From the NCBI GenBank assembly GCA_003671025.1, contig QWPW01000001.1:62001-126000 (forward strand): a stretch of 64,000 nt of DNA, in the 5' to 3' direction. This document shows, piece after piece, positions 11,110-29,010 of this stretch. The notes beneath the pieces are model-generated. The model ran no database searches. It saw nothing but the letters and a program-made list of their open reading frames with translations, and was not told the DNA's origin. A program made the position numbers and the translations under genes. Numbering within the stretch: the first letter of the stretch is position 1; every line of letters starts with the position of its first letter. The DNA comes from Planctomycetota bacterium. GTDB lineage: Bacteria > Planctomycetota > Phycisphaerae > Phycisphaerales > SM1A02.

Positions 11110-11197
11110 AGTGCAACCTCTGTGTTCGTTTGAAGGGGGCGAATGGTAGCGCGCGCGCGCGTCTTTGCGGCACACGTTGCCCGTATCATTGGTCCCC

Positions 11198-12478
11198 ATG
11201 CTGTGTCTGAACTCTGCGTTTGCGCGCTCAATATCGGTTTGCGTCGTGATCTCTTCGTGCATTGCCTTGCCTTGCGTGTCCGCCGCGCAAGAGAAAGCCT
11301 CCTCATATGGACCTCCACCAACCGCAGTGCGGGTGGTCGCGGTGACGGAGCAGTCGCTGGCGCCGCGCAAGCAAGTCTTCGGCGAATTGCGCCCCGCACG
11401 GTTCTCGACCATCGCCAGCGAAGAGGCGGGCATCGTGCGCAGCGTGCTCGTGCGCGAGGGCGATCTCATCGAGCGTGGCGCGGTGATCGCGAAGCTTGAT
11501 GGCACGCGTCTTCACATCGAAGTAAAGATGAATTTGCACAACATCGCGTCGGCAGAAGCGATGGTCGCGGAGCGCAGTGCGTCATTGCTCATGCAGCAGC
11601 GTCAGCTCGAACTGATTCGCAAGGCCAGCGAGGAGGGCGCGACCAATCCGCGCGAAATCCTCGATGCGCAAAGCAAATCCGACATCGCCAAGAGTCAATC
11701 GGAACAGGTTGCCCAGAGCATGCAAGCGTTGGAGAAGACTAAGGAGTTGCTCACCAAACGCCTCGGCGATCTCGATTTACGCGCGCCCTTTGGCGGCGTG
11801 GTGGTGAAGAAACATACCGAGGTCGGCGAGTGGATCTCGGAAGGCGCGCCCATCATTGACCTCGCAGAAACTGCGATGCTCGAAGCGTGGTTTGAGGTTC
11901 CGCAAGAGTTGTTTGAAGCGGCCGTCGCCGAAGTCGGGCGCACGCGCGGCGAGCCAACCACTCCAAGCCCCATCGAAGTGCGTACCGCGTCGCAAACGCG
12001 CGTGGTGGGAAAAGCGCTGCGCGTGATTCCCGCGATCGATCCTCGTTCGCGCACCTTCTATGCGGTGCTTGATGTGACCAATGAGAACGGCGCTCTCGCC
12101 GCAGGTTTAGCGCTGACGGCGTACGTACCTGCAGGTCCACTCACACCGCGATTGATCATCCCCAAGGACGCGCTACTACGCGGCGATGCAGGAGCATTCG
12201 TGTACGCAGTGCGCGGAGGTGTTGCCGTTCCTGTGAACGTGCGTGTTGCGTTTCCAGTTGGTGACAACGTCGCACTCGAAGCTTGCGCGCTTGAAAGCAC
12301 AGACCAAGTCGTAGTCGAAGGCAACGAGCGACTCATGCCGATGTCCGCAGTCGTCGCCATCGAAACGCCGCGTACCGCGACACCGACGACAGCAACAACA
12401 GCGTCGCCAACGACGGGAACTCCAACGACCGCAACTCCCGTCGCCGCAGGTTCGCCGGAGACGGCGGGTGACTCGTGA
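11198..12478 (+). CDS. RND efflux periplasmic adaptor (membrane fusion protein)
   Basis: A 426-residue HlyD/AcrA-family adaptor that links an inner-membrane RND pump to the outer membrane. It has a signal peptide ending near VSAAQ, a split lipoyl half-motif ([22 protein letters not shown]), a helical hairpin around residues 115-190 with high Glu/Gln/Lys, the second half-motif [18 protein letters not shown], and a beta-barrel domain. The last 40 residues are a Thr/Ala/Pro-rich tail. The ATG at 11198 gives a proper signal peptide; a TTG at 11165 is the alternative. Its stop overlaps the pump gene start (GTGA), so they are translated together. Confidence 0.9.
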
Positions 12479-15400: not shown

Positions 15401-15885
15401 GATTTGCGGCGCTGTTTGCAGTGTTCATCGTGAGCTTGACCAGTCCCACGCTGCCCATGCAATCGCTCGATGTATTGACCATGCTCGGCTTCGTGATCCT
15501 CATTGGAGTCGTGGTCAACAACGCGATTCTGCTGGTTCATCAGACGCTCAACTTCCAACGTGGCACTGCGGATGAAACTCCTTCAGACGCGTCGTTTCGT
15601 GGACTTGTCGGCGCGCCCAAAGTGATCGTGGGCGGAAAACTTCCCCTGCGCGCAGCCATCGCCGAGAGCGTGCGCACGCGCGTGCGTCCGATCTTGATGA
15701 GCGCGTTCACCAGCGTGGCGGGACTGCTGCCGTTGGTCTTCGCGCCCGGCGCGGGCAGCGAGCTCTATCGCGGACTCGGCGCTGTCATGGGCGGCGGCTT
15801 GTTGGTCTCGACCATCTTCACGATTGTTGTCGTGCCATTGGTGATGGCGGTGCTCGTGCGCGACGATGCGCCGAGCGCGACGTGA
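12475..15885 (+). CDS. RND efflux pump, AcrB/HAE1 family
   Basis: A 1136-residue inner-membrane transporter with the classical two-fold repeat: a TM helix, a large periplasmic loop, then six TM helices, repeated. The N-terminal VEGSIRQPVTVLVGVLLVL helix, PQEVEQSIVEKQEE and GVRTMTSSATQGSASV are typical of the porter domain. In TM4 the proton-relay site reads GTLIDNSIVVLEN, with Asp-Asn in place of the Asp-Asp pair, and TM10 has VVNNAILLV. It is longer than AcrB because of inserts near residues 510-540 and 1020-1050. It may export the product of the neighbouring polyene locus; that is inference from location only. Confidence 0.92.
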   Translation: MKIVEGSIRQPVTVLVGVLLVLLCAVIAVREVPVQLTPDVDDTIVSISTMWPDASPQEVEQSIVEKQEEKLQGVAGVRTMTSSATQGSASVRLEFAPGTDKDAAIREVSDRLRQVSAYPFGVDEPVVEASDPENKDYIAWIVLSAGEGAMRDGAPFDIRTMQEFAVDRVKPQLERVQGVAEVNVLGGREKALQVRVDPSALAARGVTMTQLANALRAANQNAPAGSVTESKRDVVLRCVGQFESVLDVERVAIAQGAGGPILVSDVAQVVEAWKEARSFVRSQGVSVLAINVQKEVGTNVIEVMEGVKVALAQLALTGGVLDTESKELQLSAPLTAKLVFDQTVYIDDALNLVLNNIWQGGLLAVITLMVFLRSWRSIVIVGTSVPLAVIATVVVMLSMGRTINVVSLAGLAFAIGTLIDNSIVVLENVVRHMEMGKDARRAALVGTQEVAGAILGSTLATCVVFIPIFLIGDEVGQLFRDISLAILISNLLSMVVSITVTPCACAYLLKAPKRATDAASIAALSSKPARVGLGERFATGIARWIFSISRRKLASVAFVMIMMLASLAGSYYLMPPSDYLPKGNRNLVFGLILPPPGTSSAMQEELAQRVEKTVAPYWERMMPERGTTERAAAESALPKVAVTPWMAFKFGKEVQPAPLENYFVVGFGPTMFHGGIAAEPERASYNEHLLAHATRSEVLPGTMAFAFQVPLFRTSGSSGSAVAVDLRSDELEDVKRAAERMMMRLTGAFGPRSVQPDPANFATPGLEMRVRPDQRRISDAGILPEDLTLSVAAAGDGALIDEYRAGGDFIDLIIINRASAEAAATRRSTDLDEVLNVPVALPSGRLVTVGQLADVERGASDTQINHVDRQRSVRLQVTPPPTMSLEEAVTSIEKELAAGRADGSIPGGVVSEVSGTASALAQVRGQLIGDGSAIGLITSTVFLALLVCYLVMAVLFQSFVLPFVIMFSVPLAAVGGFAALFAVFIVSLTSPTLPMQSLDVLTMLGFVILIGVVVNNAILLVHQTLNFQRGTADETPSDASFRGLVGAPKVIVGGKLPLRAAIAESVRTRVRPILMSAFTSVAGLLPLVFAPGAGSELYRGLGAVMGGGLLVSTIFTIVVVPLVMAVLVRDDAPSAT

Positions 15886-16506: not shown

Positions 16507-16569
16507 GTCGCATGGCTCGTCGCCTTACTGCGAGTACGCTCGCTGGCATCTTTCGTAGGAGTACCTCGC

Positions 16570-16839
16570 GTGTCGGCAACCCGAGAGCAGATCTTTCAAA
16601 CCGTGTGCGACATCATCCATACCGATCTCAAGTTTTCGGGAATGGATGTGACGGATGACCTCGAACTCGTCGGCGGAGGACTCGCGCTTGACTCGCTTGA
16701 TCTGCTCATGCTGGTGACAGGAATCGAGAAACGTTTCGGCCACAAGATTGCGACCAAGAGCCTCAATCGCGACACCATGGGAACGGTGGGGCGATTCGTC
16801 GACTTTGCACAGAGTGAACTCGCGGCATCGAAGACGTGA
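16570..16839 (+). CDS. Acyl carrier protein
   Basis: An 89-residue carrier protein. The phosphopantetheine attachment motif is GLALDSLDLLML, with the Ser of DSLD as the modification site, followed by the helix IEKRFG. Start is GTG at 16570 with AGGAG at 16557-16561. It differs from housekeeping AcpP (no DSLDTVEL), which suggests a dedicated carrier for the polyene-like pathway. Its stop overlaps the dehydratase start by GTGA, so the two are coupled. Confidence 0.9.
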   Translation: MSATREQIFQTVCDIIHTDLKFSGMDVTDDLELVGGGLALDSLDLLMLVTGIEKRFGHKIATKSLNRDTMGTVGRFVDFAQSELAASKT

Positions 16840-17270
16840 ACACGCTCATCGAACAACTTCCGCATCGCGCACCGTTTGTGTTTGTGTCGCGTGTCATGAT
16901 CTGCGACGGCGAGCGCTTCGAAGCAGAGTGGCAAGTCGATGGCACGGAAGACTTCTTTCGCGGACATTTTCCCAGCGACCCAATCGTGCCCGGCGTGTTG
17001 CTCATCGAATCCATGGCGCAAACGGCAGGGATGTCGCTCATCGCGCGCTACGGCGACACAGGGTGCCGCGGAATGTTGGTGCACTCCGAGATTCGCTTTC
17101 GCATTCCCGTGCGTCCGCCCGCGGTGATCACGCTGCACGCCAGTGAACTGACCTCAGTGGGACAACTGTTCCGCCTTAGCGTCACCGCAATCGTCGCAGG
17201 TGTCGTGGCCGCCGAAGGAACGGTGGTGCTGTCAACGGCGGGCAGTGCTGCAGCGACGCCCGATGTCTAG
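16836..17270 (+). CDS. FabZ-like 3-hydroxyacyl-ACP dehydratase
   Basis: A 144-residue single hot-dog protein. It has LPHRAPFVFVSRV and the catalytic stretch FFRGHFPSDPIVPGVLLIESMAQ, where His and the later Glu are the FabZ dyad. It would dehydrate 3-hydroxyacyl-ACP to trans-2-enoyl-ACP, the step that leaves a double bond in each polyene extension cycle. It starts with GTG overlapping the ACP stop. Its TAG stop shares two bases with the TAG of the convergent aminotransferase gene. Confidence 0.9.
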   Translation: MNTLIEQLPHRAPFVFVSRVMICDGERFEAEWQVDGTEDFFRGHFPSDPIVPGVLLIESMAQTAGMSLIARYGDTGCRGMLVHSEIRFRIPVRPPAVITLHASELTSVGQLFRLSVTAIVAGVVAAEGTVVLSTAGSAAATPDV

Positions 17271-18703
17271 CGAACGGATTGCCGATCGCTCGCAGGGGAA
17301 GGCGCAGAAGTCATCATTCCCGCGCGCAATCGATTCAATGCGTAAAACGTTCCGTGCAGCAGCGGGGACGCGATTCCGCTCAGCGTGTGCAGCGTCGCAT
17401 CGAATGCGGCAACGACGCGTGCGCACTGACTTTCGTCGATGACCAGAGGCGGAGTGAACTTCAAAATATTCGAGCGACTGTCAGTGACTTGGCAGAGCAC
17501 GCGATGGCTCTCGAGCATTTTCATGGCGAACGCCTGTCCGAAGAGCACGCGCTCGAGTGAGCCGATCAACGGAAGCTGCGACAAGAATCGTTCCGCGAAA
17601 TCTTTGTGCAGCGCAACGCCGAGCATGAGTCCGCGGCCTCGAACTTCAACCGCGCCGTCATGGCGCCGCACACATTCGTCAAAGCCCTTACCAAGGATGG
17701 TGCCCATGCGCTCGGCGCGTTGCGAGAGTTGTTCCGCGTCGTGAATCTCCAGCGTCATCAATGCCGCGGTCATGGCCAACACTCCGCCTTGAAACGTTGA
17801 GGCGTGCACCAACGCGTTGGTCATCGAGTTGAACGTCGCGCGCCAAACATCAGCGCGCACCAGCGCCGCGCCCACGGGCACGAATCCTCCCGCGAGCGCC
17901 TTCGAGAGCACGACGATGTCAGGCCGACACGCCGCATCATGCTCGAGTGCGAGGAAGCGGCCCGTGCGTCCAATTCCCGTTTGCACTTCGTCGACGATGA
18001 GTAGCGTGCCGAACTTGGCACACAGCCTCGAGGCTTCGCCGAGATAGCCGTTCGATGCCACGCGGAGACTCTTGCCTTGTACGGGCTCCACGAGAAATGC
18101 AGCAAAACGCCTTGTTTCGAGGGCTTTTTCCAACTCGACGAGATCATCAAACGCGATCGAAGTGGACTCGCCCAGCGGCCCAAATCCTTCGCGCAGATGT
18201 TGGTTTCCGTTGGCGGCGAGTGCGCCCAATGTGAGTCCATGAAACGCCATGTCGCAGTGAAGCACAGCACTGCGAGAAGTAAAGCGCCGTGCTAGTTTGA
18301 GCGCGCACTCCACGGCTTCGGCTCCCGAGTTGGAAAAAACCGCGTGACGCAAATCACCAGGCACGCGCGCGCACAGTCGTTGCGCGAGCAACGCAGCCAG
18401 CGGATTGCGCTCGAACTGCACCCAGTTGGGAAGTTGGCTGCGCAGCGCTTCGTCGAGTGCGGCGATCATTCTTGGATGCGAACGACCGACGGCATGCACC
18501 GCGTAGCCCGCGATGCAATCGACGTACTCGTGACCAACGTCGTCCCACAAGCGCGCATCGAGTCCGCGCACATAGCGCCGATCGAAACCCGTCAAGTGGA
18601 GCAGCTGCGCGAAACTGGGATTGACATGCTCGACGTAATTGTGGTCGACATGCGCGCGCGCATCGTCCACCAGTCGTGTGAAATCGCTCCGCTGCGCGCT
18701 CAT
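17267..18703 (-). CDS. Class III pyridoxal-phosphate aminotransferase
   Basis: A 478-residue aminotransferase of the ornithine/acetylornithine/omega-amino-acid group. Hallmarks are FSNSGAEAVECALKLAR, AFHGLTLGAL, LLIVDEVQTGIGRTG, and the PLP lysine in VVLSKALAGG. The donor and acceptor cannot be deduced. It has a longer C-terminus than the family. Start is the ATG at 18703, with GGAG upstream, rather than TTG at 18721. The gene is divergent from the glycosyltransferase, with only 17 bases between start codons. An aminotransferase is not a usual part of known aryl polyene loci. Confidence 0.88.
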   Translation of the reverse strand: MSAQRSDFTRLVDDARAHVDHNYVEHVNPSFAQLLHLTGFDRRYVRGLDARLWDDVGHEYVDCIAGYAVHAVGRSHPRMIAALDEALRSQLPNWVQFERNPLAALLAQRLCARVPGDLRHAVFSNSGAEAVECALKLARRFTSRSAVLHCDMAFHGLTLGALAANGNQHLREGFGPLGESTSIAFDDLVELEKALETRRFAAFLVEPVQGKSLRVASNGYLGEASRLCAKFGTLLIVDEVQTGIGRTGRFLALEHDAACRPDIVVLSKALAGGFVPVGAALVRADVWRATFNSMTNALVHASTFQGGVLAMTAALMTLEIHDAEQLSQRAERMGTILGKGFDECVRRHDGAVEVRGRGLMLGVALHKDFAERFLSQLPLIGSLERVLFGQAFAMKMLESHRVLCQVTDSRSNILKFTPPLVIDESQCARVVAAFDATLHTLSGIASPLLHGTFYALNRLRAGMMTSAPSPASDRQSVR

Positions 18704-18720
18704 GGGTTTACCATACTCCA

Positions 18721-19731
18721 ATGCGTGTGGCAGTCATCGTTCCGACATATCGCAATCTGCGCACGTTGCCCACCGTGCTGCAAGAACTGGCCGATGCCGA
18801 GTTGTCGGTGATCGTCATCGATGATGGCTCTGACGACGGCACCAACGAGTGGGCGCGCGCGTGGTGCGATGGTCACGCACAGCGCACGCTGATCACGTTC
18901 ACCCACAATCAAGGCAAAGGTGCAGCTCTGGTTGCGGGTCTGGCACGCGCGCGCGAGTTGGGCTTTGGCTGTGCGTTGACGATGGACTCCGATGGACAAC
19001 ATCGCATCGGTGACGCGTTGAAATTGCTGCAATCGGCTCGCCGCGGCGTGTTTTTGCTCGGTCGTCGCTGCGAGGTCACCGAGGGCTATCCCACCGCAAG
19101 TTTGTTTGGTCGACGATTGTGGGCATTGGGAATCCGCGCCTTGACGGGCCTTGGCGTGAGCGATCCGATTTGTGGATTGCGTTGCTATCCGTTGGCGCAA
19201 GTCGAACACATCGTCTGTCGCGGCGGCCGCTACGCATGGGAAGAAGAGTTCCTCGTGCGCGCCGCGTGGGCTGGTGTCGAGATCGATGAACTCGAAATCG
19301 CAACGGTCTATCAAACCGGAGAGCAGCGCGTTTCACACTTTCGCTTCGGAGATTGGGTTGAATCTCTGACGGTGTTTGCGCGTCTCGCTGCGACACGAGT
19401 TTTCGTGTTGACGCCGTCGAGTGCTCTGCGCGGGAGTTTGCTGCGGCGCGATCGATCATGGCGACGCATTCAAGGCGCGGCCATTCTCGTGGCAGGGACG
19501 CTGGCACTATGCGCGACGCAGCAGTTCGATGTGTTCGTCGCTCTCGCCATTGTGGTGCCCATTGTCATGTGGCTGGGGTGGCGACTGCACGCATCGGTGT
19601 TGGTCGCGCTGTGCGCAGCAGTGATCGTCGCCTTGCTTTCGACGATCGCTCCTGCTTGGTTGTCTGCGATTGCTGTGATCAGCCTCATGCTCGCGTTCAC
19701 GCGAGCGGCGCGCTGCCTCGGTAGCAACTGA
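18721..19731 (+). CDS. Family 2 glycosyltransferase with C-terminal membrane segments
   Basis: A 336-residue GT-A enzyme of the polyprenol-phosphate-glycosyltransferase type. It starts MRVAVIVPTYRN and has VIVIDDGSDDG, the metal-binding TMDSDGQH, and a GLRCYP / EEEFLVRAAW acceptor region. The last 90 residues hold three or so hydrophobic helices. Family 2 glycosyltransferases are regular members of aryl-polyene and xanthomonadin loci, where they are thought to decorate or anchor the pigment. There is no ribosome binding site before the ATG, so the mRNA may be leaderless. Its 3' end overlaps the convergent ligase gene by 35 bases. Confidence 0.88.
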   Translation: MRVAVIVPTYRNLRTLPTVLQELADAELSVIVIDDGSDDGTNEWARAWCDGHAQRTLITFTHNQGKGAALVAGLARARELGFGCALTMDSDGQHRIGDALKLLQSARRGVFLLGRRCEVTEGYPTASLFGRRLWALGIRALTGLGVSDPICGLRCYPLAQVEHIVCRGGRYAWEEEFLVRAAWAGVEIDELEIATVYQTGEQRVSHFRFGDWVESLTVFARLAATRVFVLTPSSALRGSLLRRDRSWRRIQGAAILVAGTLALCATQQFDVFVALAIVVPIVMWLGWRLHASVLVALCAAVIVALLSTIAPAWLSAIAVISLMLAFTRAARCLGSN

Positions 19732-21790
19732 ACATTCCCAACTGCAGCAAGTGTCGCGTGCCGGTGAAACCGCAATGCTCAAGTGCGCGCACGATGTGTG
19801 CGGGCTTTACGGCGGCGCGCATGGTGTCCGCCCAGTAGCGCATCATGGGAAACGTCGAGGGCCGTCCGCTCGCGATGACGCCAATGGTGGGCACAACCCA
19901 ATCCATCGCAAGATCGAAGGCGCTGCGCATGGCAACAGGCTCTGGTCGCGTGAGTTCGAAGATCAAGATTCTTCCGCCAGGACGCAGAACGCGACGCGCT
20001 TCTGCAAAGGCAATCGCGAGGTCGTCGACATGGCGCAGCATGTAGCTCATCGAAACGAAATCGAACGATTCGTCGGCAAAGGGAAGGCTTTCGGCCCGGC
20101 CAACCACGGTCTCACGCACGCCGCGTTTGGATGCTTGTGCCAGCATGCCAACGCTGGGATCAAGCGCGACCACTCGTCCTGTTGCACCAACAATTTCTTG
20201 CGCGATCGCTGCGCACAATCCAGTGCCGCTGCCGATGTCGAGATGCGCCGACCCGGTGGTGAGCCCGCCGTTGATCAGCATGCGCCGGCGATAGCGGCGA
20301 CCCGTTCGCAAGAACGCGAACCCGCTCGCATGGTCGTAGCCAGATGCAGAGTCGTCGAACAATTGTTTGGTGTATTGCTCACGCGCACCTCGATCAATGA
20401 GTGAATCGGGACGAGTCACAACGGGCGCAAACTCGCTTGCCGCGCACGCGCGAATGAGCTTTCCACTTGGGGTTCGCCCGAGCGCGGCCACCACTGTTGC
20501 GATGCGCGGCAGTGCGTGACTGGGAAGTAAGGGCGCGAGAAACGCACGAATCTCGGCAAGCGTGGGCTCATTCACGCCGTCGCGCAATTCCAATTCGGCA
20601 GCAACTCGCTGCAGCGCGCCGCTTGCGGCGACGGGTTTCACCAATGCGTATCGAATCGATGGATGCAGTTCCAACGCCTCTTCGACTTCGAGAGGATTGA
20701 CTTTGAGTCCGCCGACATCAAACACCAAACGCAAGCGTCCGGTGATGCGCAGCGTTCCATTCATCGCGCGCTCGCCAAGATCACCAGTGCGAAAGTATCC
20801 GTCCATCAATCCGCTGCTGCTCGAGCCGTCCTCTGTAATGATTCCATCGAGCATGCCGGGACACTTCACTGTGATCTCACCATGGGTGGCGAGTTCGGAC
20901 GAGTCGCCCTTTGCCAGCACGACCTCGACGCCACGCACGAGTTTTCCGCCTTGGCCGCGATCGAGCCAGATCGTGCCCAACTCCGTCGCGCCGTAGAGAT
21001 CAATGAGCGGGCGCTTGAAAACCCCTTCAAAACGCGCACGAATCGCTGGTGTCAGCACGCTGCCCGCAACCACCACACTGCGAAGGTGCTCGCAGGGAGG
21101 CGACGCGTGCGCGAGCGCATCGGCGGTGAAGGGGACGAGCGGCATCGAAGTCGCGCCTTCCGCCAAGGCGCGCACTGCGCGATCAAGCGAAAACGATTCC
21201 ATGACCCGCACACACGCGCCCGCAAGAATCGGCGCGAGAAACGCGTGCTCGAATCCATACGCATGCGCCATGGGGAGAAACGATGCGACGACATCGCCGC
21301 GCACACACAACTCTTCTTCGACGAGTGTTGCCGCGATCTCATCGATGCTCGCGCTTGAACGCATGACAAACCGCGATCGTCCCGTGGTGCCCGACGAAAG
21401 CAAGATCGCGCCCTGAACATCGTGACTGCGCATCACACTCATCGTGGAGTGTGCAGCTTGTGCGAAGGTGTGTTCATCGAGCATGAGTGCGGGCTTGAGT
21501 TCGTGCGGCAAGCGCCTCGCCAACAAGCCTGCGGTGGGAAAGGGCAACACGCAGGGAACGCGTCCTGCAGCAGCAATTCCCAACACGGCAATCCAGAAGT
21601 CGCTGCCCCAACCGAGGCTCACGCTCACACGCGCACCGATGTCGCAGTGCGCATTGACGTAACTGCTCACGCGCAACACGTTCTCGCGCAATGAGCCCCA
21701 ACGCAGTTCGATCCCCTCGCTGTTGATCAGCGCGACCTCGTGCGGTCGTTGCGACGCGTGCCGCGTGAGGGCGTCGAGGATCGCTCTCAT
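19697..21790 (-). CDS. Fusion of acyl-CoA/aryl ligase (AMP-forming) and SAM methyltransferase
   Basis: A 697-residue two-domain protein. Residues 1 to about 460 are an adenylate-forming ligase: AILLSSGTTGRSR, SFLPMAHAYGFEH, YGATELG, YFRTGDLG and the C-terminal GKLIR lysine. Residues about 475 to 697 are a UbiE/COQ5-type class I methyltransferase: LDIGSGTG, VVALDPS, ESFDFVSMSYMLRHV and LRPGGRILIFE. The ligase would activate an aromatic acid, probably the chorismatase product, and load it on CoA or the ACP; the methyltransferase could methylate the ring or its hydroxyl. The start overlaps the upstream stop by ATGA. It is the last gene of the 28.5-19.7 kb operon. Confidence 0.88.
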   Translation of the reverse strand: MRAILDALTRHASQRPHEVALINSEGIELRWGSLRENVLRVSSYVNAHCDIGARVSVSLGWGSDFWIAVLGIAAAGRVPCVLPFPTAGLLARRLPHELKPALMLDEHTFAQAAHSTMSVMRSHDVQGAILLSSGTTGRSRFVMRSSASIDEIAATLVEEELCVRGDVVASFLPMAHAYGFEHAFLAPILAGACVRVMESFSLDRAVRALAEGATSMPLVPFTADALAHASPPCEHLRSVVVAGSVLTPAIRARFEGVFKRPLIDLYGATELGTIWLDRGQGGKLVRGVEVVLAKGDSSELATHGEITVKCPGMLDGIITEDGSSSSGLMDGYFRTGDLGERAMNGTLRITGRLRLVFDVGGLKVNPLEVEEALELHPSIRYALVKPVAASGALQRVAAELELRDGVNEPTLAEIRAFLAPLLPSHALPRIATVVAALGRTPSGKLIRACAASEFAPVVTRPDSLIDRGAREQYTKQLFDDSASGYDHASGFAFLRTGRRYRRRMLINGGLTTGSAHLDIGSGTGLCAAIAQEIVGATGRVVALDPSVGMLAQASKRGVRETVVGRAESLPFADESFDFVSMSYMLRHVDDLAIAFAEARRVLRPGGRILIFELTRPEPVAMRSAFDLAMDWVVPTIGVIASGRPSTFPMMRYWADTMRAAVKPAHIVRALEHCGFTGTRHLLQLGMFSCYRGSAPLA

Positions 21791-23142
21791 GAAATCGAAT
21801 TCTCAGGGGTTTTCTCGCGCAAAGGTGGCATCGCCTCCGCGAAGGGCGGCATTGCCACCGGGCTCGCGAGTGTGATCTTGAACGGACGCACTCGTGCGGC
21901 AACGGCGCGTTTGCGTTGAATGCTGCACAACCCGCGCAGCGCCTGACAGCGCACACCCACACCAAACGGAATGTTGTCGATCTCTCCTGCGAGCAACGTG
22001 ATGAACGCGCGCTCGAGTGTCTTGGTGCGTTTGGGCGAGAAGAGCAGATCGCGAAACGCAGGATCGTAAAAACCTTCGACCAAGCGAAACGCGCGATCGG
22101 TGATGCGTTTGGTCCACGCGTGATGACGGGCGCGTTCGCAGGCTGCGCTCGTGCGCAACGACAGTGGACCAGTGAGCATGCGAATGACGCTGCCCGCTGC
22201 TTGCTCTGCGCCGAGCAGTCCGAGCGTCAATCCGGTGGACCACACCGGATCGAGAAATGCAGCCGCATCTCCGATCAAAAAATGTCCCGCACCCGAGAAG
22301 GGATCACAGCGATACGTGAAGTCAGAGATCACGCGATTCTGATTGGGTCCCACTGCGTGTGCCATGCGTTCGCGCAGCACGGGCGTGCGTTCAATCGCCC
22401 AACGCAATCGATCTTCCGGCGGAACATCGAGTGTGCGATGCAGCGATTCACGCGCGACAAATCCGATGCTGGTTCGCGTGTCATCGAGCGGAATCATCCA
22501 GAACCAACCTTCGTCGGCGACCACCAACGCGAAACAGTTTTGTCCGCGACCGCTGGGACGAATCACTCCTTCAAAGTGCTCGAAATACGCCACATTGCGC
22601 AAGAATGAGTGGAATCGTCGCTGCTCGCGCTCGCGGCCAATCGTGCTCGCTTGTCCGCTTGCATCAATCATCCAGCGTGCGCGCACTGGTCCCGATTCGG
22701 TGTCCACTTCGACATCGCCATCGTGCAGTCGAGTGACTGCGCGCAGCGCGCAGGAGGTTCGCACTTCTGCACCGGCTTCGCGCGCGGACTCCATCATCAT
22801 CTGATCGAGATGAATGCGCGCCATGTTGAATGCTTCTTTGTCGCCGTTACCGAACACATCGCGAAAATAAAAATACTGCGATCCGTGGCGCCAATCGCCC
22901 AACGAAATCTCCACGCCCAACTTGCGTGCGTGCGGCAGCGCCATGCACTTGTCGAGCACGCCGAGGCGACGAAACGCGCGCTTGGTGCGCGGAAGAAAAC
23001 TCTCACCGATGCGAAAGCGCGGGAACTCGCCGCGGTCAAGCACAATCACGTCGAGTCCTGCGCGAGCCATCTCGATCGCCGCGGCGCTGCCCGCGGGGCC
23101 AGCGCCGATGACCACGCAGTCGTAGAGATGCTCAGCAGACAT
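21787..23142 (-). CDS. FAD-dependent halogenase-like oxidoreductase
   Basis: A 451-residue flavoprotein of the tryptophan-halogenase/geranylgeranyl-reductase superfamily. The FAD-binding motif is VVIGAGPAGSAAA (Gly13-Gly18), followed by FRIGESFLP. The WxWxIP signature of flavin-dependent halogenases is present as WFWMIP at residues 213-218, and GDAAAFLDPVWSTG near 291-304 is the second FAD motif. It may halogenate the aromatic head group, as in brominated xanthomonadins; oxygenase or inactive homologue roles remain possible. Start is ATG 23142, overlapping the chorismatase stop by 11 bases. It needs a flavin reductase, which is not seen here. Confidence 0.82.
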   Translation of the reverse strand: MSAEHLYDCVVIGAGPAGSAAAIEMARAGLDVIVLDRGEFPRFRIGESFLPRTKRAFRRLGVLDKCMALPHARKLGVEISLGDWRHGSQYFYFRDVFGNGDKEAFNMARIHLDQMMMESAREAGAEVRTSCALRAVTRLHDGDVEVDTESGPVRARWMIDASGQASTIGREREQRRFHSFLRNVAYFEHFEGVIRPSGRGQNCFALVVADEGWFWMIPLDDTRTSIGFVARESLHRTLDVPPEDRLRWAIERTPVLRERMAHAVGPNQNRVISDFTYRCDPFSGAGHFLIGDAAAFLDPVWSTGLTLGLLGAEQAAGSVIRMLTGPLSLRTSAACERARHHAWTKRITDRAFRLVEGFYDPAFRDLLFSPKRTKTLERAFITLLAGEIDNIPFGVGVRCQALRGLCSIQRKRAVAARVRPFKITLASPVAMPPFAEAMPPLREKTPENSIS

Positions 23143-23986
23143 CACACACGCCTTCGATCTCGACGCGAAGTTCGCGTCGACAAATTGGTGCGTGCAGAAT
23201 TCTTTCGGTGTTGGTTCCGAAGTGTTCGAAGGCCAATGCGCGAACTGCTTCGAGTTCATCGGCATCGCGCACATAGATTTGCAGCGAGCGCCACGGGGTC
23301 GTTGCCGTTGCCGCCGTCGCAAGCGCTTGCAGATTGCGCAGCGATTCTTCGAATTGCAACACGAGCGCGTCGTGATGGACCGAGTCTTCGCCAACCACTG
23401 AGGCCGTGCCCGACGCAAGGAGTAACGACGACGTTCGCATCGCACGCGTGAATGCCGGCGGGGTCGGCCCGTAGCGACTGGAGTATTGCCACGCGGGGCG
23501 TTGCCGCGGGTTTTCCACGGGGTGCAATGGAGTGTCGAGCCACAGCGCGTGAACCACGAGGTCGGTTCCGTAATGGCCGACGCACGTTCCTGCGGGAATC
23601 ACGCGCACACGATCGTTCAGCGCGCGATAGGCCATGGTTCGGCCTGCATTGAATCGCATGTATCGATCAAGATCGACTTGATCGATTTCGCAGCCGTTGC
23701 CACGATCTACGCTGATGTCATTTGGTCGAGGCAGAAACGCCCAGATGCGACATGGACCCGCGGGCAATTGCGACAAGACTTCGACAAACGCATCACGAGT
23801 GAGCGCGCTCAGCGCGGAGCCTTCAACGTCGTTGCATGCGATTGAACGCGATGCGATCGCGTGTGCATCGCCAGTCCAACTTCTCGTCCACGAGGCGAGG
23901 TCATGCGCGGGATTTCCCGTCGCAGTCCATGAGGTGACGACAACGGGAGTCGATCGCCCCGTCGCTGGTGTCGATGAAGTCAGCAT
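23132..23986 (-). CDS. XanB2/FkbO-type chorismatase (hydroxybenzoate-forming)
   Basis: A 284-residue protein resembling XanB2 and the FkbO/Hyg5 chorismatases, built on a YjgF-like trimer fold. Matching stretches are RIWAFLPRPNDIS, YMRFNAGRTMAYRA, WQYSSRYGPTPPAFTRA and the ASGTASVVGEDSVHH segment. Chorismatases remove pyruvate from chorismate; XanB2 yields 3- and 4-hydroxybenzoate, the starter for xanthomonadin. It is about 50 residues shorter than XanB2 at the N-terminus. It sits between the KS-CLF fusion and the halogenase-like gene in one operon, which supports a starter-unit role. The product cannot be fixed from sequence. Confidence 0.85.
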   Translation of the reverse strand: MLTSSTPATGRSTPVVVTSWTATGNPAHDLASWTRSWTGDAHAIASRSIACNDVEGSALSALTRDAFVEVLSQLPAGPCRIWAFLPRPNDISVDRGNGCEIDQVDLDRYMRFNAGRTMAYRALNDRVRVIPAGTCVGHYGTDLVVHALWLDTPLHPVENPRQRPAWQYSSRYGPTPPAFTRAMRTSSLLLASGTASVVGEDSVHHDALVLQFEESLRNLQALATAATATTPWRSLQIYVRDADELEAVRALAFEHFGTNTERILHAPICRRELRVEIEGVCDVC

Positions 23987-24001
23987 CGAATTGCGATGGT
24001 A

Positions 24002-26284
24002 TCAAGAGGCATTGTGAATCGCTCCTGTCCGCGTGAGGACCGCCCACGATGCGCCGTGAGGATCGTTCGAACAGAGCCATCGAGGAGTTGATGACGGCAC
24101 TGAATCAGCGACGGACCAATTGTTCACCAACAACGCAGCCAGTGGTGTTGCCGCGCCGAGTTCGGCAAGCTCAATGCAGGGAAACCGCTGAAAACCCCGC
24201 GAAAATCGTGCATCGCAAGGTCTCCCGAGGCAGCGCAGTAGCGGATGGTCAAACGGCGAATTGGTCGTCTGCCCGGTCTGTCCATCCAACGGTGCCACGC
24301 GAAGACGCCGACAAAGTTTCGCTGCCGCCGTGCCTGGTGAGCGCGCGCAGGTGACGCCGAGAACATGCTCGATCTCTAACAATGTTGGGCGCGTTGATCG
24401 TGTTTCATCGCTCGCGATTGGTTGCGCGCGCTCGAGCAAGATCGCCACTGCGCCAGACCGAAGCTCGATCGAGGCGCCGATGGCGCGACTGAGCACGCGC
24501 TCGACGATGGGGTGCGTTTCTTCGCCCGCCACAACGATTGCGCGGGTCCATGTGCCCAGGCGAATGCGCGCGCTTGCGAGCATGATCGCTTCAAGCGCCG
24601 CAGTGCGCCGTCCAATGACGCTCAGCGTCGACGCGTCAATTCCAAACGCGAGCGAACACTGCGCGCTGCCGATATTGGGAACGCTCTCCGCGAACAACAT
24701 GGGATTGGCCAGGTCGATTCCTGAACGCACGAGGTCGCGGTAGTAGCGCTCGGTGTAATCAGCGGTGCCGAACCAGTTGGCGGCGATGAGTGGAGTGGAG
24801 CGCAACTCGTCGGTCGTGAGATTCGTGCTCTCGATGAGGTCACGGACTGCGCCAATCATCAAGCGCGGAAGCAACGCGAGTCGACGCGACTTGGTTCGAT
24901 CAAGCAGAGGCGTGAGCGTGTCTTCCGAAAACGCTGGCCAAATCCCTCCTTCGCGCGCGCGTGCACGCAGTGCTGCAACGCCGCGACCTGCCGAAGAAAC
25001 TGCGCCCGCGGCGGTGATGCGAATCGTCGAGTCCGCAACAACGCGCGGCGCAAGGGTGGTGGAAACTTCAAGTCTCGCTTCGTTTGCGCGACTCACGCGC
25101 AGCGCCGCGTTGGCTCCACCAAAACCTGCGGAAAGCACGACGATCGATTGCACTGATCCGTTGCGCGTCGCGTCTTCGATGAGATCAAGATCCGGAAACG
25201 CCTCAGCATCGCGTCCGCGTCCGATGCTGCTGGGAATGAAATCGTTCTCCGCACAGCCGATGACACTTGCAAGTTCCAGCACGCCAGCGGCGCCGAGTGG
25301 ATGACCGAAGCGACTCTTGAGCGCAACCACTGGCACAGTCGCGAGCGCGCTTCCTACTGCCGCGCGATACGCCTCGTACTCCGCGCTGTCGTTGCCCGCA
25401 GTTCCCGTCGCGTGTGCCACGATGAGGTCGGGTGGTTTCACCTTGTGCGCGCCGTCGTATTCGAGCACCTGCGACAACGCGCGCGCCGCGCCGATTCCTT
25501 GCGGATGCGGCTGCGTGAGATGATGCGCGTCGCTGGTTTCTGCGCACGCTTCGATGACGCCGCGGATGTGCGCGCGCTCATGCTCGTCGAGATCAACGAG
25601 TCTTCGCAAGAGAAACAACGCAGCGCCTTCGCCGAGTTTCATCCCTTCGCGATCTTTCGCGAATGGACTCAACGGACCCGCGGCGACCAATTGCAAAGCG
25701 GAGAATCCGCCGTAGACAAACTCGCTGATGGGGTCGTATCCGCCGGCGATCACCGCGTCGACTTCGCCTGCTTGAAGCAACGTGCATGCATGCGAAACTG
25801 CAGTGAGCGCCGAAGCGCACGCGCATGACACCGTCATCGTCGGCCCAGTGATGGCACAGCGGCGCAGCGCACTACTCAACACGGAAGACGCGCAGCTGCG
25901 CGCGTAGGCGAGTTCGGCGTCGGTCATGCGTCCGTCGTTCTCCGCGCGAACTCCCGCCGCGCAGTGGCGCATTCCCGCGAGCGTCGTTCCCAGCGCGATT
26001 CCCCATCGATGCGGCGCACAAGCAATGGCGGTGTGATCTTCGCGTGTGAGCAGATTGTCGATCGCCGTTGCCAGAAGAATCTCAGCTCGCTCGGCGCCAC
26101 GCGGCTCTCCACAAAGCGCAACCTCGCCCGCGCCCGCATCGATGCGCGGAGTTTGCTCAAGAGCGCACGGCGTGCGAATGCCAACTTCATTGCGGCGCAG
26201 CGCGGCCACGGTTTCTTCAAGCGAATTGCCCAACGCAGTGCAAACGCTGATGCGGGTGATGACGATGGTGCTCAACGCGTTCAC
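24002..26284 (-). CDS. Fused ketosynthase and chain-length-factor-like protein
   Basis: A 760-residue protein made of two ketosynthase-fold halves. The N-terminal half (about 1-400) has a complete KAS II-type active site: Cys156 in TVSCACAS, His291 in HATGT, and Lys323/His328 in KSRFGHPLGAAG. The C-terminal half (about 420-760) keeps the fold signature VPNIGSAQCSLAFGI and a VVAGEE segment. There the catalytic Cys position reads TLSVIGRRTA, Gly558 in place of Cys, as expected for a chain length factor. In known aryl-polyene systems these are two separate proteins. Start GTG 26284 overlaps the upstream stop (GTGA); the frame also opens earlier, at 26335. Confidence 0.85.
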   Translation of the reverse strand: MNALSTIVITRISVCTALGNSLEETVAALRRNEVGIRTPCALEQTPRIDAGAGEVALCGEPRGAERAEILLATAIDNLLTREDHTAIACAPHRWGIALGTTLAGMRHCAAGVRAENDGRMTDAELAYARSCASSVLSSALRRCAITGPTMTVSCACASALTAVSHACTLLQAGEVDAVIAGGYDPISEFVYGGFSALQLVAAGPLSPFAKDREGMKLGEGAALFLLRRLVDLDEHERAHIRGVIEACAETSDAHHLTQPHPQGIGAARALSQVLEYDGAHKVKPPDLIVAHATGTAGNDSAEYEAYRAAVGSALATVPVVALKSRFGHPLGAAGVLELASVIGCAENDFIPSSIGRGRDAEAFPDLDLIEDATRNGSVQSIVVLSAGFGGANAALRVSRANEARLEVSTTLAPRVVADSTIRITAAGAVSSAGRGVAALRARAREGGIWPAFSEDTLTPLLDRTKSRRLALLPRLMIGAVRDLIESTNLTTDELRSTPLIAANWFGTADYTERYYRDLVRSGIDLANPMLFAESVPNIGSAQCSLAFGIDASTLSVIGRRTAALEAIMLASARIRLGTWTRAIVVAGEETHPIVERVLSRAIGASIELRSGAVAILLERAQPIASDETRSTRPTLLEIEHVLGVTCARSPGTAAAKLCRRLRVAPLDGQTGQTTNSPFDHPLLRCLGRPCDARFSRGFQRFPCIELAELGAATPLAALLVNNWSVADSVPSSTPRWLCSNDPHGASWAVLTRTGAIHNAS

Positions 26285-27246
26285 GGAGTAGCCTTCGCAG
26301 ACGCGGATGAGCGCAACGTGTCGATGGCCATCCACTGTCGTGGATAGCGACGAATCGCGCTCTCCATCGCAGCAACGAGTTCAAGTTGCGCGGGATGCTG
26401 AGCGACATCACGCGCCGTGAGTCGTTCTTGTTGGGTCTCGATGCAACGATCGGCCCACACGCGCAAACCCGTCGGAGTCCGCGCGCAAAACGTGGGAACA
26501 ATTGGTGATCCGTTTGCGCTCGCCAATCGCACCGGTCCTGAAGGAAGCGCAGCGTCGACCAGTCCTAGGAACGGCATTGGCGACGCGATTTGTCCTGGCA
26601 TGGTGCGATCAGCGTGGATCACCACGGCCTCGTCGGCTCGAAGCGCATCGCGCAACGCGACCCATGAGGAGATCCCATCCGCGACGGGATGTTCGATGAT
26701 GCCCAGTCGTCGACGATGTTCGCTGCGCGCTCGCTCGAAGCGCGGCATAGCGTCGGGTTGGAACAGAACATGCACGCGCGACTCGATCGTGCGCAACGTC
26801 GCCAACGCGGGTTCGAATGAACCAAGGTGAATGCCCGCGATGACCACTCCGCGGCGCAGTCGTCGTGCGGCGAGATAGGTCTCCGTTCCTTCCAACTGGG
26901 TGACTGGCGAATGTTTGGCTGGTTGGCGCGCGCCATGTTTCTGCAGCACCTCTGCGATAAACACTTGCATCGCGCCGAGCATGTCATACGCGCAACGTGC
27001 ACGCGCGAGTGCTGTGGAATCGGGGCCAAGCGCAAGCCCAGCGTTGAACATGAGATTGCGCCGCCAACTATGCGCACAGGCAAACGCACCCAACTGCACG
27101 AGTTTGCACGCAACCGGAGAAAGCACGCGCGCATCTTGCAGAATGCGATAGTAGATCTCATCAAACGCCAGATGCGCCGCGCGCTGGCCCATGCTCGGAG
27201 TCACGCGTGGAAGCGGAGGACGTGTTGCGCCACTGTCATCGCTCAT
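26281..27246 (-). CDS. LpxL/HtrB-family acyltransferase
   Basis: A 321-residue member of the lipid A late-acyltransferase family. The catalytic HX4E motif is HLGSFE, and VIHADRTMPG and the downstream GSPIVPTFCAR segment match the family. It lacks an obvious N-terminal membrane helix. In aryl-polyene loci, LpxL-like enzymes are thought to join the polyene acyl chain to a lipid or sugar carrier. Start ATG 27246 overlaps the PlsC-like stop (ATGA), and its own stop overlaps the KS-CLF start (GTGA). Confidence 0.87.
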   Translation of the reverse strand: MSDDSGATRPPLPRVTPSMGQRAAHLAFDEIYYRILQDARVLSPVACKLVQLGAFACAHSWRRNLMFNAGLALGPDSTALARARCAYDMLGAMQVFIAEVLQKHGARQPAKHSPVTQLEGTETYLAARRLRRGVVIAGIHLGSFEPALATLRTIESRVHVLFQPDAMPRFERARSEHRRRLGIIEHPVADGISSWVALRDALRADEAVVIHADRTMPGQIASPMPFLGLVDAALPSGPVRLASANGSPIVPTFCARTPTGLRVWADRCIETQQERLTARDVAQHPAQLELVAAMESAIRRYPRQWMAIDTLRSSASAKATP

Positions 27247-27926
27247 GCGCAGCTCGATTGTGGCGACGGCGCGATCGCCTCGGCCACTCGCGCGAGAAAC
27301 TGCGCGTGCGTTTCACCCTCACGTGCAGAGATCGGTGCACGGAAGCGCACCGTGACTCGATTGCGAAAGCGTGGGAAACGCTGCGATTTCGGCAGCGCCT
27401 GCAGTGTTCCATCGATGCGCACGGGAACGACGGTGCAACCAGTAGCGAGTGCAACCATGGCCACGCCGGGCTTGAGTGTTCCCAGCGCGCCTGTGCGCGA
27501 ACGTGTTCCTTCGGGATACATCGCCACCACATCGCCTTGCACAAGCGCTGCTGCAATCAAGTCGACGGCGCGCAATCCGTTCGCATCGCCAGTCGCGTCG
27601 CCGCCCACCAACACCGCACGAAAGACGCGCACCGCAAGTCCGTTGAGCATCCATCGCTCGAGGCGCTCTCGCATTGGTGCACCGGCCGCAGCCAGACGAA
27701 GACGGGGCCCGCTCGCGACGAAGCGCACGCGACGGCGGCAGGACAACGGAAGCGTGTAGTAGAGCACGCTGGTATCGGCATGACTTTGATGATTCGCGGC
27801 GACGATCAATCGGTCCGCCGCGACAACTGTTGCGAGTCCGCCTTCATCGATCACGGTGACCGTCGATAGCGTCGCGATGCGCAAGCCGTCGTAGAGCACT
27901 CTCGAAAACGTAGTCCAGAATGTCAT
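27243..27926 (-). CDS. PlsC-like 1-acylglycerol-3-phosphate acyltransferase
   Basis: A 227-residue acyltransferase. It carries the NHX4D motif as NHQSHAD, the GVAMVALATG segment, and the glycerol-phosphate-binding EGTRSR motif. It would transfer an acyl chain to a lysophospholipid-type acceptor at the membrane. Start ATG 27926 (MTFWTTFSRVLYDG) is used because the frame upstream belongs to the overlapping lipoprotein gene; start and stop overlap by ATGA. Xanthomonadin loci also encode such acyltransferases. Confidence 0.87.
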   Translation of the reverse strand: MTFWTTFSRVLYDGLRIATLSTVTVIDEGGLATVVAADRLIVAANHQSHADTSVLYYTLPLSCRRRVRFVASGPRLRLAAAGAPMRERLERWMLNGLAVRVFRAVLVGGDATGDANGLRAVDLIAAALVQGDVVAMYPEGTRSRTGALGTLKPGVAMVALATGCTVVPVRIDGTLQALPKSQRFPRFRNRVTVRFRAPISAREGETHAQFLARVAEAIAPSPQSSCA

Positions 27927-28522
27927 GGACGCGGTGCTTCCTGTGCAGATTTCGCCGTCGGTTGGGCCGTCGGTTGGGCCACGTCTTGTGCGTGGGTGAA
28001 GTCCAACTCGATGCGGGTCGTCCCTGCACAGACCACGAACGAGGCGCGCCTCCACGAGGGCGGGATCAGTGAGGAGCCGCCATTGGAAAACGCCCACGGA
28101 TCGCGAGGAATCCCCAAGATATTGCGCCGCAGCGAGCCACAATTCGTCGTGTCGTGGAACGAGGAAATCGCATAGCGCCCAGGGGCGAGATCGGTGATGG
28201 CGGTGATCTTGGAAGAATCGGCCGCGGCGACGCTCACCCCGCGCACCCACTCGCCGTCCTTCATAAACGTGGGTTCACTGCCCCACAACGCGATGTGAAT
28301 TGGTCCATCACCGTCGCTTTGTTTGACACCATTGAGTGCAATCTCAATGGTGCTCGTCGACACCATCGGAGGTTGCGCGAGCAGGGGCGCAGGAGTGCGC
28401 GCGTTGCCGGCACATCCCGCCATCAGCGCCGCTTGCAACAGCGAACGAAACAATGTTCGCGCGCGCGACCATCGAGTCGCCCCACGCGCATGTTGACTCT
28501 TGCTGAGAGGGCAATGCGTCAT
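27923..28522 (-). CDS. DUF2141-type lipoprotein
   Basis: A 199-residue probable lipoprotein. The N-terminus is long and basic, then FRSLLQAALMAGC gives a lipobox (LMAGC). The mature part shows the DUF2141 pattern: IHIALWGSE, APGRYAISSFHDTTN, NILGIPRDPWAFSNGG. DUF2141 proteins are small secreted beta-proteins of unknown function. It is the first gene of the minus-strand polyene operon and overlaps the PlsC-like start by ATGA. The ATG 28522 is preferred to TTG 28528. Confidence 0.78.
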   Translation of the reverse strand: MTHCPLSKSQHARGATRWSRARTLFRSLLQAALMAGCAGNARTPAPLLAQPPMVSTSTIEIALNGVKQSDGDGPIHIALWGSEPTFMKDGEWVRGVSVAAADSSKITAITDLAPGRYAISSFHDTTNCGSLRRNILGIPRDPWAFSNGGSSLIPPSWRRASFVVCAGTTRIELDFTHAQDVAQPTAQPTAKSAQEAPRP

Positions 28523-28551
28523 GCTCAATGTTTGATGTTACAACACCTCGC

Positions 28552-28953
28552 ATGAACAAACTCTTAAACTTTCTTTCGGTTCTCTGTGGTACCGCGGCGC
28601 TCACCATCACCGTCGTCGGGCTCACCGCCTGCGGCACCAACACGAACTATGTCGACCTCATGCGCGTGACTGGCGAGACTGAGCAAAGGATCATGTCTGA
28701 TGAAGCGACGTACCGCGCCGACGGCAACCTCAGTGACCGCGTTCGTGCCTGGTCCGACATCAAGAGACTGCGCGAAAAGCAGATGATCATGGCCCAACGC
28801 ATTCGCGTGGAATCGATGCCCGAGGTTCAAGCCAAGACCATGACTGTCGAGCAGGGCAACGCGAAAAAGGCGGAACTCGTGGCCGCTGCGACCGCGCGTT
28901 ACCAACAGGCGGAGGCGCTTCCGCGTCCCACCCAAGGCATAACCGCGATGTAA
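28552..28953 (+). CDS. Small lipoprotein of unknown function
   Basis: A 133-residue lipoprotein with signal peptide MNKLLNFLSVLCGTAALT and lipobox LTACG. The mature part is helical, charged and Gln/Ala-rich (VRAWSDIKRLREKQMIMAQRIRVE), probably a short coiled coil. No family is recognised. It starts 29 bases from the divergent DUF2141 gene, so the two share a promoter region. Confidence 0.65.
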   Translation: MNKLLNFLSVLCGTAALTITVVGLTACGTNTNYVDLMRVTGETEQRIMSDEATYRADGNLSDRVRAWSDIKRLREKQMIMAQRIRVESMPEVQAKTMTVEQGNAKKAELVAAATARYQQAEALPRPTQGITAM

Positions 28954-29010
28954 GGATTCCAAGTGCGGCGCGCCGCTGTTGATCTCGCCCTCGCTTGCCG
29001 ACCTTGCGAC

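Follow-up and report, generated by a model that had tools for sequence, protein, structure and literature searches.

What a compact block of biosynthetic genes in a planctomycete might make, and from which starter unit, is the question raised by a 64,000-nucleotide stretch of a Planctomycetota bacterium of the order Phycisphaerales (contig QWPW01000001.1 of assembly GCA_003671025.1, positions 62,001 to 126,000), here termed the window. The block, an island with genes on both strands at 16507-29010 of the window, lies between a gene termed hyp206 and a pseudouridine synthase gene (RLU) and is missing from the same site in genomes of the same genus. It probably encodes an aryl-polyene-like type II polyketide pathway forming a lipid primed by chorismatase-made hydroxybenzoate, a reading drawn from sequence and modelled structure. 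Directly observed behind it are gene content, synteny, co-occurrence, catalytic residues, a predicted fold and the clean absence of the block from sister genomes, while the steps of the pathway are all deduced from gene families and conserved residues. The gene set is far beyond chance, and the same genes stand in the same order in relatives.

A gene set of aryl-polyene type

The components by which an aryl-polyene type II polyketide synthase is recognised are all present in the island. They comprise a ketosynthase (KS) with a chain-length factor (CLF) as its partner, here joined in one chain of 760 aa (KS-CLF; 24002-26284, minus strand; ketoacyl-synt 100.8 bits, Ketoacyl-synt_C 68.9 bits), a dedicated acyl carrier protein (ACP; 16570-16839, plus strand; PF00550, PP-binding, 21.8 bits against a cut-off of 20.8), which recurs in relatives, and a FabZ-like 3-hydroxyacyl-ACP dehydratase (16836-17270, plus strand; PF07977, FabA-like, 67.3 bits, under the FabZ cut-offs of NCBIfam). 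An aromatic acid source and an activating ligase are also found, namely a chorismatase of the FkbO/Hyg5 superfamily as putative source of hydroxybenzoate (23132-23986, minus strand; PF21168, FkbO_Hyg5-like_N, 32.7 bits, cut-off 27) and a 697-aa fusion of an acyl/aryl-AMP ligase with a UbiE-type methyltransferase (19697-21790, minus strand; PF00501, AMP-binding, 108.7 bits; PF01209, Ubie_methyltran, 91.7 bits). Together with a flavin-dependent halogenase-like protein (21787-23142, minus strand; PF04820, Trp_halogenase, 81.3 bits), a family 2 glycosyltransferase (GT2; 18721-19731, plus strand; PF00535, Glycos_transf_2, 65.7 bits) and LpxL-like (26281-27246, minus strand; PF03279, Lip_A_acyltrans, 58.0 bits) and PlsC-like (27243-27926, minus strand; PF01553, 62.9 bits) acyltransferases, these are the genes that an earlier annotation of the same DNA (the original prediction) had named, and Pfam recovers every one of them. 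That inventory left out a class III aminotransferase (17267-18721, minus strand; PF00202, 240.9 bits) and a DUF2141 protein (27923-28528, minus strand; PF09912, 67.3 bits). The description of the genes as mostly one overlapping operon is borne out by seven minus-strand genes (DUF2141, PlsC, LpxL, KS-CLF, chorismatase, halogenase-like and ligase-methyltransferase), which overlap or lie at most 15 bases apart; on the plus strand the ACP and dehydratase genes stand together and GT2 separately. Because none of the NCBIfam cut-offs is met by ten island proteins among the matches listed, these proteins are, on their scores, divergent members of their families. Family scans thus agree with a gene set of the aryl-polyene type, as had been proposed.

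In the proposed pathway, chorismate would be converted by the chorismatase into hydroxybenzoate, probably 3-hydroxybenzoate (3-HBA), which the ligase would activate for the ACP and the one-chain KS-CLF would elongate with malonyl units. A conjugated polyene would then result from the action of a FabG-type ketoreductase borrowed from elsewhere and of the FabZ-like dehydratase, and the methyltransferase and the halogenase-like flavoprotein may modify its ring or chain. GT2 and the LpxL- and PlsC-like enzymes could join the chain onto a lipid or glycolipid, which may be destined for the outer membrane, and the aminotransferase might supply a head-group amine. Genetic work on Xanthomonas and Lysobacter (passages of PMC3949708 and PMC3691225) indicates 3-HBA as the precursor of xanthomonadin. 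The expectation of a chorismatase without an ammonia-lyase was upheld: the island has no ammonia-lyase gene, and PF00221 matches just one protein in the genome, a HutH-like one on a different contig (NF006871 552.2 bits, cut-off 524; TIGR01225 538.5 bits, just below 539.15), so that an ammonia-lyase starter for the island was rejected. For the Phycisphaerae, such a pathway would mean a non-carotenoid pigment to look for.

Comparison with known systems

The island shares with the xanthomonadin clusters of Xanthomonas and Lysobacter and the arcuflavin clusters of Azoarcus the combination of chorismatase-made hydroxybenzoate, a KS with a CLF-like partner, an ACP and a FabA/FabZ-type dehydratase; an AMP-ligase, a glycosyltransferase and an acyltransferase are also common to them, and halogenase genes occur in some (as far as sections of PMC3949708 and PMC3691225 describe them). 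In those clusters, as partly described, the KS and CLF-like genes are separate and the CLF-like protein is short (275 residues) with an essential Gln, whereas here both lie in one chain. The Lysobacter cluster, in the same sections of PMC3691225, holds a ketoreductase, two dehydratases, a LolA-like carrier and exporters, whereas the island is without ketoreductase, LolA and MMPL; it has instead an aminotransferase, a word that the available text of PMC3691225 on Lysobacter nowhere uses. The KS-CLF, ACP and dehydratase logic is likewise that of the aryl-polyene clusters of Xenorhabdus and Acinetobacter (ApeO-ApeC). However, ApeO-ApeC is a two-chain heterodimer in which ApeC is half-size and has nearly lost its second thiolase fold (according to part of PMC8358021), and here there is one chain with a longer CLF half. 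The PfaC didomain (6riw) also carries KS and CLF in one chain, but PfaC belongs to a polyunsaturated fatty acid (PUFA) synthase (a passage of PMC12895367) and the protein studied here is a 760-aa protein of a type II pathway.

Since there is no ketoreductase, LolA or MMPL in the cluster and the chorismatase falls outside the Xanthomonadaceae group, the island is not filed as a xanthomonadin cluster, but on its gene content it most likely works like one. A xanthomonadin-like route outside the Proteobacteria, as originally put forward, survives in this weaker form: the aminotransferase is unexplained by the xanthomonadin scheme, and chorismatase loci outside the Proteobacteria are not peculiar to planctomycetes. 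Titles from Acidobacteria, Nitrospirae and Actinobacteria are among the 80 chorismatase loci listed, and antiSMASH arylpolyene calls for planctomycetes are in print, one in Phycisphaera mikurensis, of the same bacterial class (given as a count in the relevant part of PMC8882080), and others in one table column of PMC10923784. Type II KS-CLF pairs of Planctomycetes are catalogued in PMC10132072, as its consulted portion indicates. In the literature, in which subscription journals were thinly covered, nothing was found that describes this gene arrangement, a free-standing KS-CLF of one chain acting in aryl-polyene synthesis, or a chorismatase from a planctomycete at a locus of this kind.

The one-chain KS-CLF

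Of 40 sequence sets in which a KS signal was seen (the window counted), 35 have the KS and CLF signals in a single frame. In L035, which comes from another class, the two are adjacent genes; contig ends truncate L066 and L091, L089 is fragmented, and the frame of L087 shows no CLF signal. Pfam places its best stretches in residues 66-354 of 760, with a second stretch for ketoacyl-synt, and the CLF half was recognised mainly from structure; PF13723 (Ketoacyl-synt_2) has no match in the genome. An AlphaFold2 model of the whole protein (mean pLDDT 77.6, pTM 0.88, with only 9 sequences in the input) has the PfaC KS-CLF 6riw as its top Foldseek match (E 5.4e-36, TMq 0.74, 912 columns, 14% identity), and in the model KS and CLF folds are present in one chain, as in PfaC-like didomains. 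A multidomain PUFA synthase was not found, the protein having 760 aa and Pfam giving only ketoacyl-synthase-type matches above cut-off. Because VIA-align of the full model listed KS-type chains only, the CLF half was modelled alone (356 residues, pLDDT 77.2, pTM 0.84). Among known pairs, the ishigamide KS-CLF (6kxd/6kxe/6kxf) gives the highest Z for this half, the closest chain being the CLF 6kxe_B (Z 35.4, 2.6 A, 321 residues) with FabF-type chains next at 33.7; however, the ishigamide pair consists of two chains, and no chorismatase starter is known in that pathway.

Cys-Lys-His-His is conserved in the KS half of 35 out of 37 aligned rows, the remaining two being incomplete. The corresponding CLF site of the same 37 rows holds Arg (27), Val (5), Ser (1), Ala (1) or a gap (3) and never Cys or Gln. 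In the separate acidobacterial CLFs L101, L128 and L148 it is Glu that aligns at this site, so that departure from Gln at this position is also seen outside one-chain proteins. The planctomycete one-chain KS-CLF would be a simpler enzyme with which to ask how polyene length is set by a CLF and whether the Gln of the CLF is required.

In the KS tree, which omits pieces of about 300 residues or less, the 44 planctomycete rows (loci of the order and named records, a few of them truncated at contig ends or duplicated) group as a single clade, to which two one-chain rows from another planctomycete family are sister, and this clade stands apart (SH-aLRT 99) from the KS sequences of chorismatase loci in Proteobacteria and Acidobacteria. 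Eight of the 80 named loci listed have a one-frame KS-CLF, all of them planctomycete-titled (L095-L098, L107, L109, L111, L124). The KS-CLF has matches at E<=1e-100 in 14 of the 382 genomes sampled across the phylum; one frame spans both halves in four (G000, G356, G191, G118), stops separate the halves in seven, and three match in the KS half only. Beyond planctomycetes, no one-chain KS-CLF was found in 10 non-planctomycete genomes, Pseudomonadota not being searched. Among the matches listed for 199 genomes of the phylum of G663, the sole one-frame KS-CLF is that of G681 (L194, a frame of 771 aa), which is placed with acidobacterial KS sequences, elsewhere in the tree than the planctomycete clade, and is probably an independent fusion.

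The chorismatase and its type

The starter enzyme had been called XanB2-like, a label that its active-site residues favour and its phylogeny does not. The protein reaches 108.7 bits with TIGR04444 (cut-off 325), and its closest solved structures are 5ag3 (E 2.8e-20), taken as Hyg5 from its residue numbering, and then FkbO (4bps, E 1.3e-12). In the structure-search alignment Gly193, Cys269 and Glu276 of the window protein pair with Gly240, Cys327 and Glu334 of Hyg5, and these columns are invariant across 17 aligned chorismatases. Glu334 is essential, and a Gly/Gly/Cys triad marks the Hyg5 type in Nat-hyg5 (so stated in part of PMC7170507; the first Gly of the triad was put at Hyg5 173 via a constant offset). 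The window protein thus has the catalytic Glu plus the Cys and Gly of hydroxybenzoate-forming types, among them the XanB2 type (CH-III). The third site, at Hyg5 173, is Cys in the window's branch and in Stenotrophomonas, Gly in Streptomyces and many planctomycetes and Ala in many Proteobacteria, and since it varies among groups it does not fix the type. The Cys held in common with Stenotrophomonas was accordingly rejected as proof of a XanB2 type: the tree separates the two groups, other planctomycetes carry Gly or Ala, and the actinobacterial row L155 has Cys too.

The chorismatase tree was built by a quick method from 107 rows, with no Xanthomonas XanB2 itself among them, and omits sequences of fewer than 200 residues as well as L068 and L074; like the KS tree it contains duplicates (L095 = L057, L096 = L061, L098 = L085). 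A branch with SH-aLRT 95 divides the tree: 37 of 38 planctomycete rows fall together with five from Acidobacteriota, one from Myxococcota and one unassigned, and opposite them are the proteobacterial and actinobacterial rows, the acidobacterial L148 and the long-branched planctomycete L035. The window's chorismatase is separated by this branch from the Xanthomonadaceae (Stenotrophomonas, Pseudoxanthomonas). Because the planctomycete rows split from the proteobacterial ones, the label chorismatase fits, as judged from this tree, and the label XanB2 does not. The nearest chorismatase loci listed are those of 'Planctomycetia bacterium isolate F1-140-MAGs141' (59%) and of a metagenome-assembled genome (MAG) labelled Phycisphaera mikurensis (47%), followed by Phycisphaerae/Phycisphaerales MAGs, mixed with Acidobacteria and Proteobacteria lower down; that the nearest named relatives listed are Planctomycetia and Phycisphaerae records accords with the planctomycete-type genome that had been recognised from the DNA. 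In this protein, L095 and L096 match genomes of the window's own family exactly. A Caballeronia plasmid chorismatase was rejected as a parallel, its locus not being a polyketide one. One locus titled Bacillus subtilis SK7B5 (L123, JAHREJ010000002.1) has a chorismatase that falls within Stenotrophomonas in the tree, and its assembly is probably mislabelled or contaminated.

Distribution, synteny and co-occurrence

Among 301 genomes of the order, including 10 of the window's genus, the KS-CLF (E<=1e-40) occurs in 39, of which 25 belong to the window's family and 14 to two other families; within the genus it occurs in two, the window's genome and G523. Regions around KS-CLF matches were fetched from 37 genomes (38 regions), plus L031. 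Gene content and order are identical to those of the window in L057 and L058, and L059 and L056 differ by one added ABC-2 permease cluster gene between KS-CLF and LpxL (the L056 contig begins inside the dehydratase gene, and L055 is contig-cut). These four Phycisphaerales relatives confirm an own gene layout that is syntenic. The transporters differ: L078, from another family of the order, has LolA and MMPL beside the core by Pfam scan, and genes of the same MMPL sequence cluster occur in 12 loci (L035 of another class, L070 and L077 of the window's family, and nine in the other two families). For ABC-2 permease and ABC ATPase genes, Pfam scans covered L062, L063 and L071, and the assignments in the other loci come from clustering. 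As ABC-2 or MMPL genes accompany the same core, the transporter varies around a constant core.

Chorismatase matches were counted at E<=1e-12 and, as strong matches, at E<1e-70, giving 47 and 35 of the 301 genomes respectively. Strong matches occur in 34 of the 39 KS-CLF genomes and in one (G425) of the 262 others (Fisher p 2e-38), and any match in 35 of 39 as against 12 of 262 (Fisher p 5e-31), both values being uncorrected for kinship. The KS-CLF genomes without a strong chorismatase are G602 and G608, where a contig end cuts the gene and leaves a remnant in both, and G464, G463 and G558, whose whole genomes contain no chorismatase match at E<=1e-12. TIGR04444 run over 392 genomes of the phylum gave matches in 48, many of them weak (E about 1e-12 to 6e-4) and none above the curated cut-off; in the 13 of the 47 other matching genomes that were viewed (14 regions), only L031 and L035 have further genes of the set.

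Halogenase-like protein, ligase-methyltransferase and aminotransferase

The halogenase-like protein has the halogenase 8zop as its top PDB match (E 6.9e-49). Its WFWMIP motif is exact in 13 of 27 aligned rows of the family, with variants in the others, and its conserved Lys is present in all 27; together they match the WxWxIP and Lys combination characteristic of flavin-dependent halogenases, and the protein is a putative member of that group. One protein combines ligase and methyltransferase in the window and in eight fetched loci; four loci encode them separately. Of 41 sequence sets (the window counted), 17 contain the class III aminotransferase; its top NCBIfam row, PigE (NF053554, 384.8 bits), is below the cut-off of 850 and assigns no function here. 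In L069, L071, L072 and L073 the cluster is adjoined by a gene for a protein of 675-681 aa, which in L069 combines a glucosamine isomerase domain with a PIG-L deacetylase domain, a hint of an amino-sugar head group.

A more far-reaching proposal, offered tentatively and with more doubt than confidence, is that the Phycisphaerae have an aryl-polyene-like lineage of their own, in which a fused stand-alone KS-CLF bearing Arg in its CLF site, fed by a chorismatase clade of its own, and an amine added by the aminotransferase in the window's family would lead to an undescribed amino- or amide-linked aryl-polyene glycolipid.

Weighing the product

Several observations weigh against an aryl-polyene product primed by hydroxybenzoate. 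Pfam finds no ketoreductase (SDR), thioesterase, second KS, LolA or MMPL among the island genes, and since a Lysobacter ketoreductase mutant loses its pigment (in a passage of PMC3691225), the ketoreductase would have to come from elsewhere in this genome, where SDR has 10 matches in 9 frames. The CLF site is mostly Arg and never the Gln that is essential in Lysobacter ORF16 (also from PMC3691225, in part), and a class III aminotransferase lies outside the xanthomonadin scheme. G558 and G463 are, from their gene content, real exceptions to the link with chorismatase: their uncut loci (L064 and L088, respectively) have KS-CLF, ACP, dehydratase, LpxL, PlsC, GT2 and aminotransferase and lack chorismatase, ligase and halogenase, so that the core is usable without a chorismatase starter. 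A different starter unit is possible in both; no ammonia-lyase is found among the seven neighbouring frames that were Pfam-scanned, in L064 only. Of 10 loci titled Stenotrophomonas, 8 have LpxL, GT2, ligase, ACP and PlsC homologues close to the chorismatase, but these stretches give no KS, CLF or dehydratase signal, and homology of the whole cluster is not shown there. Separately, a gene of the Pfam Flavoprotein family (5686-6279 of L064) adjoins the aminotransferase of that locus.

The missing ketoreductase and the aminotransferase would also suit an aryl or alkyl lipid that lacks a long conjugated polyene; one example would be a short lipid or glycolipid, without visible colour, that starts from hydroxybenzoate and carries an amine in its head group. 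The altered CLF site would suit it too, as would the G558 and G463 loci, where chorismatase, ligase and halogenase are absent. Such a product is nevertheless unlikely, since the FabZ-like dehydratase is retained next to the ACP, the core stands next to LolA and MMPL in the order relative L078, and the CLF half is structurally nearest to the CLF of ishigamide synthase, an enzyme that makes polyenes.

It is quite improbable that the chorismatase is of the FkbO type and supplies a dihydroxycyclohexadiene acid in place of hydroxybenzoate. The protein does belong to the FkbO/Hyg5 superfamily with a score far under the curated cut-off, and alignment alone does not decide the reaction of a chorismatase (as a section of PMC3949708 states). 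Yet the window has the Hyg5-like Gly and Cys where FkbO (4bps) has Ala at both positions, and in an alignment of 109 rows the Gly is kept in all and the Cys in 106, with Ser in one row and two rows cut off there. Least credible of all is the conversion of hydroxybenzoate into a quinone-like compound, since the methyltransferase, although it matches the UbiE/COQ5 family and although XanB2-made 4-HBA feeds coenzyme Q in Xanthomonas (PMC3949708, in part), is fused to an acyl-AMP ligase in the same operon as the KS-CLF, and Pfam finds no prenyltransferase or decarboxylase in the island.

Borders and movement of the island

The block had been placed at 16570-28522, and comparison with island-free members of the genus corrects this to 16507-29010, a discrete block of 12.5 kb flanked in the window by hyp206 (to 16506) and RLU (from 29011). 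Among eight island-free genus members, the contigs of L207, L209, L210, L212 and L213 reach far enough across the site, and in these five the distance between the hyp206 and RLU matches is 29 to 212 bases; the contigs of L208, L211 and L214 end at RLU. In G523, of the same genus, the cluster adjoins the same pseudouridine synthase gene. The island does not stand out by base composition, its GC being 0.610 and that of the flanks 0.603 and 0.604, and the two border stretches compared share no exact direct repeat of 8 to 20 bases. With a clean island in two of 10 sampled genus members, its gain and loss become traceable.

In the KS tree the window pairs with G602, from another genus, and G523, from the window's genus, pairs with G514, from the genus of G602, both with support 97. 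Identity to the window is 69% for G602, 61% for G523 and 58% for G514 in the KS-CLF, and 72%, 78% and 69%, respectively, in the pseudouridine synthase. Because the KS pairings cross genus lines, the sequences suggest that cluster copies moved or were replaced between genera, old parallel copies being the alternative. The fork that unites the window, G523 and G514 in the quick chorismatase tree lacks resolution, and the G602 gene is cut.

Next to the right border of the island, a small protein without a Pfam match (28528-28953, plus strand) belongs to a sequence cluster (c18) present in three sequence sets, and adjoins the gene cluster in L056 and L057 too. The RND and HlyD-like genes just left of the island (11165-15885) were considered as its exporter and rejected as parts of it: judged where the contig reaches, the island-free genus members keep RND and mostly the HlyD-like gene. 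Further to the right, at 32333-35689, a frame of 1118 aa has no Pfam match and is 66-72% identical in genomes of the same genus; its true start is probably more downstream, since it overlaps a HAD-family gene on the opposite strand.

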